From a virus, in the IMG/VR virus record IMGVR_UViG_3300044539_000040, positions 1 through 22,884 of that record: a stretch of DNA of 22,884 nucleotides; one strand, 5' to 3'. The position numbers and the translations under genes were made by a program. Within the stretch, counting starts at the first letter, position 1. Every line of letters begins with the position of its first letter. The notes below the pieces were generated by a model. It saw nothing but the letters and a program-made list of their open reading frames with translations, had not been told where the DNA came from and did no database searches. Below, piece after piece: positions 4,096-18,176 of the stretch.

Positions 4096-4127
4096 CTTTA
4101 TTATATTTAATTTGTTATTTATTATTT

Positions 4128-4170
4128 GTTACATTTATATTATCAATTACTAGTCGTATCTAGACTGTAA
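4128..4170 (-). promoter_or_regulatory. Repeated early promoter element, copy 7
   Basis: Minus strand: TTACA-N5-GATACGA-N9-GATAATA then TATAAATGTAAC. The GATAATA box is 42 nt upstream of the ATG at 4095. Confidence 0.75.
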
Positions 4171-4171
4171 G

Positions 4172-4327
4172 TTATATTATATTTAATTCTATTAATATTG
4201 ATTCTATTATATCTTCTTCTAAGAATAATTCTTCATCATAGTCTAATTTTAAAAGTTCTATTTGATCTTTTATTTCTTGAAGTTGGTTAGGATATTTATT
4301 TACTATTAATTGTTCTATTCTAGTCAT
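4172..4327 (-). CDS. Small acidic helical protein, 51 aa
   Basis: ATG at 4327 opens a 51-residue frame (MTRIEQLIVNKYPNQLQEIK...), ending TAA at 4172. It is very acidic and Leu/Ile-rich with a heptad-like pattern (LLKLDYDEELFLEEDIIESI), so a short coiled coil or helical hairpin is likely. It forms its own unit between promoter copies 8 and 7. Function unknown. Confidence 0.65.
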   Translation of the reverse strand: MTRIEQLIVNKYPNQLQEIKDQIELLKLDYDEELFLEEDIIESILIELNII

Positions 4328-4354
4328 GTTATTTTATTTATTTATTATTATTTA

Positions 4355-4397
4355 CTTACATTTATATTATCATTCTTTGATCGTATTAAGACTGTAG
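4355..4397 (-). promoter_or_regulatory. Repeated early promoter element, copy 8
   Basis: Minus strand: CTACA-N5-AATACGA-N9-GATAATA then TATAAATGTAAG. The GATAATA box is 37 nt upstream of the ATG at 4327. Confidence 0.75.
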
Positions 4398-4401
4398 AGG
4401 A

Positions 4402-4578
4402 TTATAAGACTTTATATTTATAAAGATTTCTAGTCAATAATTTATCAACTTCTTCTAAGTCTTTTGGATTTATTATTAAATTATTATTTAATATATAAAA
4501 AGAATTATTTAATTTGTTAGAATTAATTAATATAGAATTAATTAAAGATTTAAAGTTTTTGTTAATTTTTAAAGTCAT
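4402..4578 (-). CDS. Small Asn/Leu/Lys-rich protein, 58 aa
   Basis: ATG at 4578 opens a 58-residue frame (MTLKINKNFKSLINSILINS...) ending TAA. Composition is extreme (Asn, Leu, Ile and Lys make up most residues), partly reflecting A/T-rich DNA, so the reading frame is supported mainly by its position between promoter copies 9 and 8. No domain is recognised. Confidence 0.6.
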   Translation of the reverse strand: MTLKINKNFKSLINSILINSNKLNNSFYILNNNLIINPKDLEEVDKLLTRNLYKYKVL

Positions 4579-4611
4579 TTTATTTTATTTATTTGTTATT
4601 ATTAATTTCTT

Positions 4612-4654
4612 TATTCAAATATATTATCATTTTAACCTCGTGTCCTGACTGTAA
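4612..4654 (-). promoter_or_regulatory. Repeated early promoter element, copy 9
   Basis: Minus strand: TTACA-N5-GACACGA-N9-GATAATA, downstream end TTTGAAT in place of ATGTAAC. The GATAATA box is 43 nt upstream of the ATG at 4578. A paired TGCTATAC repeat begins 7 nt further upstream. Confidence 0.7.
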
Positions 4655-5047: not shown

Positions 5048-5090
5048 GTTACATATATATTATCATAATAACCTCGTATTCGTCTTGTAG
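5048..5090 (-). promoter_or_regulatory. Repeated early promoter element, copy 10 (family description)
   Basis: Minus strand: CTACA-N5-AATACGA-N9-GATAATA then TATATATGTAAC. All ten copies (43 bp) keep the three blocks at exactly the same spacing while the spacer bases vary, which is what a protein-recognised promoter shows and a recent duplication does not. GATAATA would be the -10-like box, with a start site a few bases downstream and leaders of roughly 15-35 nt. The Bacteroidota primary sigma consensus (TTTG, then TAnnTTTG) is absent, so a phage RNA polymerase or a phage-modified holoenzyme is likely. This copy drives the 52- and 53-aa genes. Confidence 0.75.
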
Positions 5091-5094
5091 GGAG

Positions 5095-5116
5095 TGCTAT
5101 ACGCGTTGCTATACAC
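5095..5116. repeat. Paired TGCTATAC box upstream of promoter copy 10
   Basis: Identical over its 22 bp to the pair at 2796-2817 and 4 nt upstream of promoter copy 10. Being the same at two sites 2.3 kb apart while neighbouring DNA differs argues for selection on the sequence itself. Confidence 0.65.
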
Positions 5117-5132
5117 GCTACGCTGCGCTCCA

Positions 5133-5482
5133 CGTATCGTATCGTAATACGTATACATACATACACGTATCGGCAATGGTAATGTATCGGCACACGGTAA
5201 CGGCAACGCACAGGAGACCAGACACAGCACACAGCACAGACCAGATCACGGCACATCACCAGCACTAGCACACGGCACACGGCAGAGCACAACACCAGAC
5301 ATGATGCAGCGCGATGAGGTAACACTGCTAGCCAGCATACCATACACATGCACCCGTATCGTATCACATCGTATAACATATCGTACACATCACACGCACA
5401 CACCACAGCACACATACAATCACACGAGACACAACGTATCACACTGCCATGCATATCGTACATAGAATAGCCAGATCGTATC
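5133..5482. repeat. CGTATC hexamer cluster in A/C-rich block
   Basis: Exact CGTATC occurs at 5133, 5138, 5166, 5355, 5360, 5435 and 5477, with further ATCGTA/TATCG variants between. They cluster at both ends of a core (about 5190-5310) in which T is nearly absent from the plus strand. Iteron-like spacing is irregular. The hexamer resembles the TCGTAT block of the promoter family, so degenerate binding sites for the same protein are conceivable. Confidence 0.45.
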
Positions 5483-5605
5483 ACACGCGCACAGGAAAAG
5501 GCAAATCGTTTTGTACAAAGTCGAAAAACGGCCGGGGGGTGGGGTAAACCCAAATCGTTTTCCTTTCCAAATTCCAATGTGAAACGTAGGGTGTAACCCC
5601 TTATA

Positions 5606-5615
5606 TATATATTTG
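5606..5615 (+). promoter_or_regulatory. Possible host-type -7 element for the right arm
   Basis: The run TATATATTTG contains TATATTTG, which fits TAnnTTTG, the -7 consensus known for Bacteroidota primary sigma factors. It lies about 200 nt before the first rightward gene. No convincing -33 TTTG partner is seen at the proper distance, and A/T-rich DNA gives such matches by chance. Weak call. Confidence 0.2.
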
Positions 5616-5716
5616 TAACAACATTTTTTCAACACTGATAAAAATTTTTTATAATATTTTTTTTTGTATCTTATTATAATAAACATACGTCGGTTGGTTA
5701 TAATAAATAAACGAAA

Positions 5717-5766
5717 AGTGTGACGTAAGGTAGTTATATATAAAAATAGTAGGCTAATGTCACACT
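5717..5766. repeat. 50-bp dyad element, copy B
   Basis: AGTGTGAC (5717-5724) and GTCACACT (5759-5766) are perfect 8-bp inverted arms around an A/T-rich core with TTATATATAA. The segment TAGGCTAAYGTCRCACT is shared with copy A at 2843-2891. It lies 51 nt before the first rightward gene, the right place for an operator or a promoter core of the late arm. Confidence 0.6.
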
Positions 5767-5817: not shown

Positions 5818-6579
5818 ATGGCATTTAAACTAAGAAGTCAATCACCATTATATCAGGATAAGAATAAGCCTACGCTTTACGACAAGGGTTCTGATAAGGT
5901 ATACAAAAAAGTATACGGGCTTGAGGAGCGTGTTGATAAGGCTTTAGGGTACCCAGAGACTAGAGCTCAGTCTATTGCTGATGATTATACGGCAAAGAAT
6001 AAAGGAGATGATATGAAGGCTGATAAGGTTAGGCATGCGGCTGCTAGTATGTATACGCGCCAAGCTATATCTAAAAAGCTAGGGGGGGGAATCCTTGGTA
6101 ATGTTGTTGGAGGTATAGGAGCTAATGCTTTAGGAGCAGCGCATGAGGTTGCTTCGTTCAATAGCGAGAATGGTATTATAAATGGATTACAGGAAATGGC
6201 AATGGATATGACTAATAACGCTATTGGGAGTATTTCTAAGAAGAAGAACGTGATATCGAATATTGAAAAGTACGGCACTAGTGGGATTGGTGATAAAACA
6301 AAGAAAGACATGCTTAAACGTAAAGTGTCGCCATTATTAAAACAAAAGTTATCCCCTAAGGCAGCCAAGGCTAAAGCGGTAAGAGATTTGGCATTTGCTA
6401 AAACAGATGATAGAAGAGCTAAGAAAGCGCATGCTCAAAGAAAGCATCGTGCAGACCCTAGCGGTAAAGGTAAAGATTGGGATCATGAAGACCAACAGTG
6501 GGAGACTGCTAAAAGGAACAGGGGTAATGACGGGAATGGTACTAAGGGTGAAAGCGGAAAGAAATACAGTACAAAATAA
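5818..6579 (+). CDS. Putative virion-associated protein with HE/MDxxNNxxG signature, 253 aa
   Basis: This is the first gene of the right arm. The N-terminus MAFKLRSQSPLYQDKNK has the SPL-type opening seen in several other proteins here. A middle region (about 66-140) is helical with RHAAASMYTRQA (72-83), a Gly-rich turn, AHE (108-110) and MDMTNNAIG (129-137). This His, HE and MD-x2-NN-x2-G order resembles the DUF6973-type domain, whose activity is not established to my knowledge. The C-terminal 90 residues are very basic and low-complexity, ending in a D/E/K/G-rich tail, as in DNA-associated internal virion proteins. The start is the first ATG after the control region. Function unknown; an internal or ejected protein is an inference. 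Confidence 0.65.
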   Translation: MAFKLRSQSPLYQDKNKPTLYDKGSDKVYKKVYGLEERVDKALGYPETRAQSIADDYTAKNKGDDMKADKVRHAAASMYTRQAISKKLGGGILGNVVGGIGANALGAAHEVASFNSENGIINGLQEMAMDMTNNAIGSISKKKNVISNIEKYGTSGIGDKTKKDMLKRKVSPLLKQKLSPKAAKAKAVRDLAFAKTDDRRAKKAHAQRKHRADPSGKGKDWDHEDQQWETAKRNRGNDGNGTKGESGKKYSTK

Positions 6580-16331: not shown

Positions 16332-18176
16332 ATGATAAATATAGGTATTGGTATAGGATGGGCAAAAGCTTTATATAGCGTAGCAAATAATGTTATTGCT
16401 AATTTTAAAGCTAGAGTACTGTCATATCCAAATAGTATATTTGAAGCGGGACCTTGTTTAGATGCAACATTGGAAGAATTAAATGCAATTGGATTATTAG
16501 ATAACGCTTCTCTTGTTATTACCCCTAATGCATATAATGAAGGAATATTATACGATGTAATTCCAAACACTACTTTGGGCGATATGGATGTAGTTCGTGC
16601 TACAACAGCAACGAGAGTTAATAGTGCGGGATTGATTGAAGTAGTCCCTAGAAATTTATTGACTTATAGTGAGCAATTTCAAAATGTTGCTTGGACAATA
16701 AGAAATTCTACAATTAGCGCAAATATAACTATAGCTCCAAATGGAACATTAACTGCCGATAAATTAATTGAAGACGTAACAACTGCGGAACATTGGGTAT
16801 TTCAATCAACTACAAATACCATATCATCTGCAACCATAAGTTGTTATATGAAAAAAGGAGAAAGAAATTGGGGTTTTATCAGAACAAGAACGAGTGTTAA
16901 TGATTTTTACGCTTGGTTTAATTTAGATAATGGTTCAATTGGAACAGTGCAAAGTGGTATAACGGCATCAATTATAGACGCGGGGAATGGTTGGTATAAA
17001 TGTATAGTTACAAATCCTAACCCAACGACAGCTGCAAATCCTTCTGTTATTGGTATATCTAATTCAGATAATGTATTTTCATATACAGGTAATGGAACTT
17101 CAGGTATTTTTATTTGGGGCGCTCAATTTGAACAAGGCTCAACAGCAACAGAATATTTCCCTACAACAACAAGATTAAACATACCACGTATTGATTACAC
17201 AAACGGAAGCTGTCCGAGTTTATTGGTAGAACCGCAAAGAACAAATTTATTGCAAAGAAGTGAGGAATTCGATAATGGGATTTGGGGTAAAGTAAATGTT
17301 GTAATCACAGCAGATTCAATTATTTCGCCTAATGGAACTCAAAACGCTGATTTAATTAGTTATAATTCAACTACAAATTTTTTAGCGTTTAGTCTTACAA
17401 ATGCAATTACCTCATCTTATACCATAAGTGTTTTTGCTAAAAAAGGAACAGGAAGCGTTTTAAGAATAAGAGAAATCAACATTTTTGGAACTTCATCAAC
17501 TTTTGATTTGAACGCAGGAACTGTTTTATCGGGTACGGGAAAAATTGAAAATTACGGAAATGGTTGGTATCGTTGTTCAATAACTCAAGCATACACAAAT
17601 CTTCAAACTCCTATAAATTGGAGTTTTGATAGTAATTCAAATATTAATAATCTTTATTTATGGGGGGCTCAATTAGAAGCAGGAGCTTATCCAACTTCAT
17701 ACATTCCAACAGTAGCTACAACAGTAACAAGAAATGCTGATTTAATTTCAAATAATAATCTTATTTCAAAAGGACTAATTGTCAATGATTATGTTTTATT
17801 TCTTGATATTACAAACCCTATATTAGGAAATCAATATATTTTAGATTCGACTGATATATCTTCAATTAGAACAGGAATTTTAAGAGTTGATGGAACAACT
17901 GCATCTATAACAGATATAACAGGTGGAATTTCTATTAGTATATTAAATATTTTGACAATTGGAAAAGGAAAAATGTGCGTAAAAAGAACAGGAAGCACTT
18001 TAAGTTTTTTTGCAAACGGAGTTAAAGCTGCATCAACTACAACAACAACTGCGGGAACAATAAATAATTTAAAAACAGGAGTTACAAATTCAACAACTTC
18101 AAGTTATATCAATAGCATTGAATTGTTTCCAATAGCTTTAACAGATACTGAATGTATTTCACTAACAACACTATAA
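16332..18176 (+). CDS. Large modular fibre or spike protein, 614 aa
   Basis: N-terminal 100 residues form an anchoring region (INIGIGIGWAKALYSVANNV; LVITPNAYNEGILYDVIPN). Two related carbohydrate-binding-like modules follow, each opening N-L-L-x-x-S-E-x-F-x-N...W (about 111 and 302) and closing with W-GAQ-x-E-x-G...T-Y/F-P-T (about 260 and 450). The C-terminal 140 residues (from about 472) look like a concanavalin/LamG-type domain (YVLFLDITNP, GKMCVKRTGSTLSFFANGVK). This module chain is common in tail or head spikes of Bacteroidota phages that bind polysaccharide. No catalytic motif is seen. The next gene overlaps its stop (TAATG). Confidence 0.75.
   Translation: MINIGIGIGWAKALYSVANNVIANFKARVLSYPNSIFEAGPCLDATLEELNAIGLLDNASLVITPNAYNEGILYDVIPNTTLGDMDVVRATTATRVNSAGLIEVVPRNLLTYSEQFQNVAWTIRNSTISANITIAPNGTLTADKLIEDVTTAEHWVFQSTTNTISSATISCYMKKGERNWGFIRTRTSVNDFYAWFNLDNGSIGTVQSGITASIIDAGNGWYKCIVTNPNPTTAANPSVIGISNSDNVFSYTGNGTSGIFIWGAQFEQGSTATEYFPTTTRLNIPRIDYTNGSCPSLLVEPQRTNLLQRSEEFDNGIWGKVNVVITADSIISPNGTQNADLISYNSTTNFLAFSLTNAITSSYTISVFAKKGTGSVLRIREINIFGTSSTFDLNAGTVLSGTGKIENYGNGWYRCSITQAYTNLQTPINWSFDSNSNINNLYLWGAQLEAGAYPTSYIPTVATTVTRNADLISNNNLISKGLIVNDYVLFLDITNPILGNQYILDSTDISSIRTGILRVDGTTASITDITGGISISILNILTIGKGKMCVKRTGSTLSFFANGVKAASTTTTTAGTINNLKTGVTNSTTSSYINSIELFPIALTDTECISLTTL

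Follow-up and report, generated by a model that had tools for sequence, protein, structure and literature searches.

At the point where the two arms of a phage genome diverge lies a non-coding block (5117–5500) whose defining property is strict alternation of purines and pyrimidines (RY alternation). Judging from the sequences of relatives, this alternation is conserved at one position, while sequence, length, composition and strand polarity vary. The block was found in an IMG/VR virus record of 22,884 bases, analysed over its whole length (the window). Our preferred reading, a tentative one drawn from sequence comparison and modelling, is that the block forms a torsionally soft, Z-DNA-prone spacer of a divergent control region; the spacer probably adjoins a replication origin.

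The window phage and its relatives

The window codes for a terminase large subunit (TerL; phrog_6681), a portal protein (phrog_6547), GroEL (phrog_5725) and a collagen-like tail fibre. A blastn search of annotated phages with the junction gave no match, and relatives were found through proteins instead. TerL is 64% identical to that of MW202828.1 (Podoviridae sp. ctfjg026, from Manatee Spring; a circular genome of 60,850 bases), about 45% to those of the Flavobacterium elemo phages (Elemovirus), 41% to that of Maribacter phage Panino and 36–39% to those of Cellulophaga phages of the Pachyviridae and Pervagoviridae. By these protein comparisons the window phage is a GroEL-encoding phage of a Flavobacteriia-type group, related to Elemovirus, Pachyviridae and Pervagoviridae. 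Elemovirus, Baltivirus (Pachyviridae) and Callevirus (Pervagoviridae), with TerL identities of 36–45%, share with it both GroEL and the two divergent arms.

The genome plan can be read from relatives of up to 66 kb. It consists of a leftward arm, with genes for nucleotide metabolism, a primase-helicase, ERF and a sigma-70-like protein, and a rightward structural arm, the two being split exactly at the block. MW202828.1 carries an alternating block at the same divergent junction, which, unlike that of the window, is G/T-rich on the corresponding strand and built of CG/TG repeats. The most alternating stretch of Panino (0.72) is near its junction. Elemo, phi19:3 and phi38:1, unlike the window phage, have no comparable block.

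Composition and alternation of the block

The preliminary description of this DNA had presented the stretch as a foreign, A/C-rich block with no believable gene. Its composition details were all recounted as stated: three T in 5221–5280, seven CGTATC hexamers (in 5100–5500, versus eight on the whole plus strand of the window and none on the minus strand) and a G-run between two AAATCGTTTT copies. The block is real, non-coding, unusual and located at the divergence point, but its A/C richness is neither unique nor defining. With 133 A, 120 C, 73 G and 58 T in 5117–5500, the base composition is extreme but not without parallel: elsewhere in the window A+C climbs to 0.656, compared with 0.659 in the block, and GC to 0.521, compared with 0.503.

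The alternation, by contrast with the composition, is unmatched in the window. It amounts to 0.742 of the steps over 384 nt, as compared with 0.499 ± 0.025 and a maximum of 0.606 in 20,000 composition-keeping shuffles of the block (z about 9.6). When 100-nt windows were sampled across the 22.9 kb, the top seven all fell in 5051–5500; values of up to 0.82 are reached in the block, against a mean of 0.494 for the window and 0.64–0.67 for the best sampled places outside the block.

The minus strand has a reading frame of 178 aa, which is open because T is scarce on the plus strand. The gaps against the closest relative, L001 (1, 1, 4, 12, 1, 41, 2, 3 and 20 nt), are mostly not multiples of three, and a protein-coding gene was rejected, its frame being broken by these indels. 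An assembly chimera, which the preliminary description had named among the things that would refute it, is ruled out by the recurrence of the junction with conserved flanks in 75 loci, including many independent contigs.

Organization of the divergent junction

The block is upstream of both promoters that we infer from motifs, one leftward and one rightward (Table 1).

Table 1. Features of the divergent junction in the window
Feature	Position	Strand	Basis or remark
Promoter-like motif for leftward transcription of the first early-arm gene, ATTATC-N10-CGTATT-N6-TGTA (plus-strand reading)	5059–5089	−	Repeated motif
TGCTATACGC..TGCTATACAC..CGCTCC motif, left spacer edge	5095–5131		Also dispersed in the early arm
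RY-alternating, deformable spacer, predicted to be Z-DNA-prone (block proper)	5132–5493		Alternation 0.74; deformability z 6.6; modelled P(Z) 0.99 at sigma −0.055
Invariant core GATGCAGCRCGATGAGGTAACRCTGYTAGC within the spacer	5303–5332	+	Only the window's nearest relatives
Conserved module: GGAAAAGGCAAATCGTTTT, G-run 5534–5544, GGTAAACCCAAATCGTTTT	5494–5561	+	Repeat D3; nhmmer profile
Rightward promoter-like element CGTAGGGTGTAACCCC..TATATTTGTAAC	5585–5619	+	Conserved in profile
AT-rich tract AAAAATTTTTTATAATATTTTTTTTT, candidate unwinding element	5640–5665	+	Sequence; conserved in relatives
Imperfect dyad of about 48 nt, AGTGTGACGTAAGG..TAGGCTAATGTCACACT, 5' leader of the rightward arm	5717–5766	+	75 distinct copies across loci
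First gene of the rightward (structural) arm	5818–6579	+	L001 counterpart 92% identical; C-terminal domain recurs in 80 loci

The GTATAGCA/TGCTATAC part of the left-edge motif is present in 34 of 37 spacers, and further copies of the motif are located at 2796, 2808, 4662 and 4675 of the window. Apart from the window, five viral contigs carry the exact pattern of the 30-nt spacer core, surrounded by variable sequence, whereas the core is absent from L003, L005, L006, L007 and MW202828; its conservation would suit a site of either binding or recombination.

The right-hand module, which can also be read as GGAAAAGGCAAA.., the G-run and AAANCGTTTTCC.., belongs to a region captured by an nhmmer profile that matches 5496–5763 of the window and about 70–75 relatives or loci. 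A G-quadruplex at the G-run was discarded on account of the substitution of CCCCCATGGGG, GGGGACCCGG and similar sequences in relatives, and a helix pairing the two flanks of the G-run on account of uncompensated changes in L101, L106 and L130. The rightward promoter-like element is found in tandem in L082, L097, L101 and L127, and we take it to resemble a Bacteroidota promoter of the TAnnTTTG type.

Alternation in the relatives and in a second lineage

Eighty loci were fetched around the first rightward gene, the spacer being defined as the interval between two conserved anchors, and 39 non-redundant spacers, 80–622 nt long and mostly from metagenome contigs, were compared. Their mean alternation is 0.66, compared with 0.50 for the remaining parts of these loci; z exceeds 3 against self-shuffles in 33 of the 39, and most of them out-alternate every other window of the same length in their own locus. 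After trimming of 70 nt at the end that carries the TGCTATAC motif, the alternation is still 0.667. All RR/YY dinucleotide steps are reduced in the spacers, to 0.52–0.91 of expectation, and all YR/RY steps are raised, to 1.12–1.46, with values near 1 elsewhere; the GC content is 0.45, versus a background of 0.35. A+C of the trimmed spacers spans 0.34 to 0.74, with L121 and L124 T/G-rich, and the blocks of MW202828 and L183 are likewise G/T-rich. The expectation in the preliminary description that related phages might keep the composition while the sequence changes was therefore borne out in part, as the alternation is kept and the A/C richness is not.

Alternation is missing or weak in the spacers of L003, L005, L006, L007 and L131. 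The block is therefore frequent in the group, yet phages can do without it. In a selection test based on few alignable pairs, transition/transversion counts of 85/48 versus 192/165 (p 0.051, borderline) weakly suggest a depletion of transversions in the spacer.

In MW202828 the block has a GC content of 0.67 and an alternation of 0.91, the maximum of that genome, the next best place reaching 0.70. This second lineage was scanned through 80 contigs with a GroEL 60–64% identical to that of MW202828. Alternation of at least 0.75 is reached in eight of the 80, most loci falling short, and the twelve most alternating stretches are almost all located 860–1370 bases upstream of GroEL. The nine with enough flank have minus-strand open reading frames on the left and plus-strand ones on the right, L204 being the exception, and seven of these nine blocks are G/T-rich while two (L197 and L201) are A/C-rich. 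A (CG/TG)n or (CG/CA)n block is present at the homologous divergent junction of MW202828 and about ten contigs. As read from these contigs, the second lineage has its alternation at a single position, in blocks of either polarity and in a minority of members only. The alternating stretch of L204 (1485–1626; 0.76 per 100 nt) lies between minus-strand open reading frames and not at a divergent junction.

Modelled response to supercoiling

As an alternating purine–pyrimidine sequence (0.74 over 384 nt, at most 0.61 in shuffles), a pattern that allows under-wound DNA to turn left-handed, the block has the hallmark of a Z-DNA element. In five genomes the Olson-type deformability of the block exceeds that of the remaining sequence by 5.5–8.9 standard deviations. 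The B–Z transition was treated with an equilibrium model, the transition energies being those of Table 1 in PMC3024258. For a 5.4-kb domain, the model yields a P(Z) of 0.68 for the window block at sigma −0.045 and of 0.99 at −0.055, with no other segment above 0.18; the MW202828 block has a P of 1.00. Over the 39 loci at sigma −0.06, the spacer ranked first in 21, versus 2.9 expected, and the mean modelled P(Z) of 0.60 for spacers fell to 0.26 once they were shuffled and was 0.07 in the other segments.

When strand melting was allowed with energies for about 0.1 M salt, the window block stayed the preferred Z site. With 0.01 M energies, melting starts in the AT-rich gene region at 4100–4640, and Z formation in the window is suppressed by it. 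The block accordingly emerges as the element of lowest B–Z energy in its domain at P 0.99 (sigma −0.055) and with melting at 0.1 M, but not with melting at 0.01 M. In nine second-lineage loci P(Z) was 1.00 in all settings, low-salt melting included. Under modelled supercoiling the block would be the preferred B-to-Z site of its region, in a salt-dependent competition with melting. Some of the twist, junction and melting constants of the model come from outside the tabulated energies and are values that we assume to hold.

Possible functions of the spacer

The repeated words of the junction can be explained by a replication origin at which degenerate CRTAY/CGTATC iterons and the invariant core bind a phage initiator and the AT-rich tract unwinds, the alternation being only a by-product of these words. 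This account is unlikely, although several observations agree with it. The cumulative GC skew reaches its lowest point at the junction or close to it in the window (5492), in G008 (33105, with the G-run at 33123), in elemo (18794) and in Panino (77147, the record junction); in MW202828 it is at 16933, about 0.7 kb from the block, and all minima lie within about 1 kb of the junction. Such a minimum is expected of a bidirectional origin, yet it coincides with the switch of gene strand and is therefore not decisive, so that the skew check proposed in the preliminary description returned the expected minimum together with its confounder. Of 37 spacers, 19 are enriched in ATCGTA words; G008 has genes for a primase-helicase and ERF in the adjoining arm, two DnaA-C proteins are encoded by MW202828, and the AT-rich tract is conserved. 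However, CGTATC words are missing from about half of the spacers, where alternation is present regardless, and the core is restricted to the nearest relatives. The junction resembles bidirectional phage and plasmid origins that combine iterons with an AT-rich unwinding element, in that it has divergent arms, a skew minimum, an AT-rich tract and repeated words; it differs from them in having no universal iteron, its repeated words changing between relatives, and no cluster of DnaA boxes (TTWTNCACA) near the block. A tandem-repeat scan of G008, G001, G006 and MW202828 revealed no evident competing iteron array. An origin with unwinding properties, as suggested at the outset, is possible in view of the skew minimum, the adjacent AT-rich tract and the replication genes in the adjoining arm.

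The spacers vary strongly in length and sequence, contain short tandem repeats (CGTAT in G001; GCGTC and CGCGTGTGTGTA in MW202828) and lack the block in some relatives, all of which would suit a neutral, fast-evolving, low-complexity filler that arose by replication slippage and has no role of its own. We regard such a filler as improbable, because in a genome of about 35% GC it should be AT-rich and non-alternating like other spacers, and slippage alone does not predict that two lineages of opposite polarity should both be depleted of all RR/YY steps at a fixed position; the weak depletion of transversions also speaks against it. The two other roles raised by the preliminary description fared worse. 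A packaging start (pac/cos) or genome terminus is very improbable: there is an enrichment of contig ends on the upstream side of the junction (in 46 of the 75 loci, over the 6 kb inspected) and several contigs begin exactly in the TGCTATACRC motif, at ATACGC/ATACACGC, but these ends are spread across about 4 kb and no one sharp site stands out among them. TerL, moreover, lies about 14 kb from the block, and both MW202828 and Baltivirus phi19:3 were deposited as circular. TGCTATACRC/TGCTATAC is also a dispersed repeat that breaks assemblies, and as several contig ends fall on it, those near the junction are probably assembly breaks. Hardly any likelihood is left for an A/C-rich, unstructured non-coding RNA with a regulatory function transcribed from the block. 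The low folding of the plus strand would agree with it, but the block is upstream of both putative promoters, its polarity is reversed in some relatives, folding is no better than in shuffles for either strand (z +1.96 and +1.77) and an Rfam search of the block returned no family (best E 2.8). By the same folding and Rfam results a structured non-coding RNA was rejected.

The reading of the block as a torsionally soft, Z-DNA-prone spacer relates its properties to its place. By the twin-domain effect, negative supercoils gather in the interval that separates two outward-pointing transcription units. In these phages, transcription of the two arms away from each other would let negative supercoils accumulate in the junction interval, where the spacer could take them up by under-twisting or, in vivo, by flipping to left-handed DNA. 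Such an uptake may act on transcription by buffering or timing the firing of both promoters, and on replication by doing the same for the opening of the AT-rich tract at the probable bidirectional origin. It is conceivable, although rather doubtful, that the element is a dedicated torsion valve, in which case at least two phage lineages would keep a Z-DNA-forming element at the divergence of their arms, selected on alternation and not on sequence, which would absorb transcription-driven supercoiling and couple early and late transcription to the initiation of replication.

Known Z-DNA-forming tracts near promoters (PMC3024258) are comparable to the block in their alternating purines and pyrimidines, their low B–Z energy and their location where transcription-driven negative supercoiling should collect. 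Unlike them, the phage spacer is fixed at one genomic position across the group despite changing sequence and polarity, and it is usually long (about 80–600 nt) and imperfect. No phage counterpart of a conserved Z-prone spacer was found in searches of open-access papers. Pinning down a biological role for left-handed or torsion-responsive DNA in bacteria and their viruses has been difficult, as the candidate sites are dispersed and seldom conserved. In the present case dozens of phages retain a physical property, seen as alternation, deformability and predicted Z propensity, at a single functional position. A constant property with variable letters, composition and polarity is the pattern expected if selection sees structure, and low-complexity non-coding phage DNA can thus hide a conserved feature that alignment searches miss.

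Other elements of the two arms

The window contains ten motifs of the ATTATC-N10-CGTATT type and G008, a close relative, contains 13; the majority stand about 30–45 nt upstream of minus-strand open reading frames. In the window, strictly spaced ATTATC-N10-CGTRTT precedes early-arm genes at 118, 1647, 2187, 2636, 2750, 3670, 4139, 4366, 4623 and 5059. The same early arm of G008 codes for a 255-aa protein with sigma-70 regions 2 and 4 (L040:6010–6777), and this sigma-70-like protein may direct one class of early-arm promoters.

The dyad of the rightward leader has a second copy in the window at 2843–2891. Dyads of this kind (AGTGTGACRTTAGG..TAGGCTAAYGTCACACT, 48–50 nt) number one to three per phage and are found both in the rightward-arm leader and within the leftward arm. 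At the varying positions of the 75 distinct copies, A-C and G-T are as frequent as A-T, and G-C never occurs, a pairing pattern that a pair of DNA half-sites would explain no less well than a covarying RNA stem. The rightward-arm leader of L003, a relative without the block, contains a tRNA-Met-like sequence (1167–1236). In MW202828.1 (L054/L055), the palindrome GTCGTTAACGAC is repeated 14 times, always in the early arm and between genes; with a repressor-annotated gene in the same genome, this operator array resembles a stoperator system.
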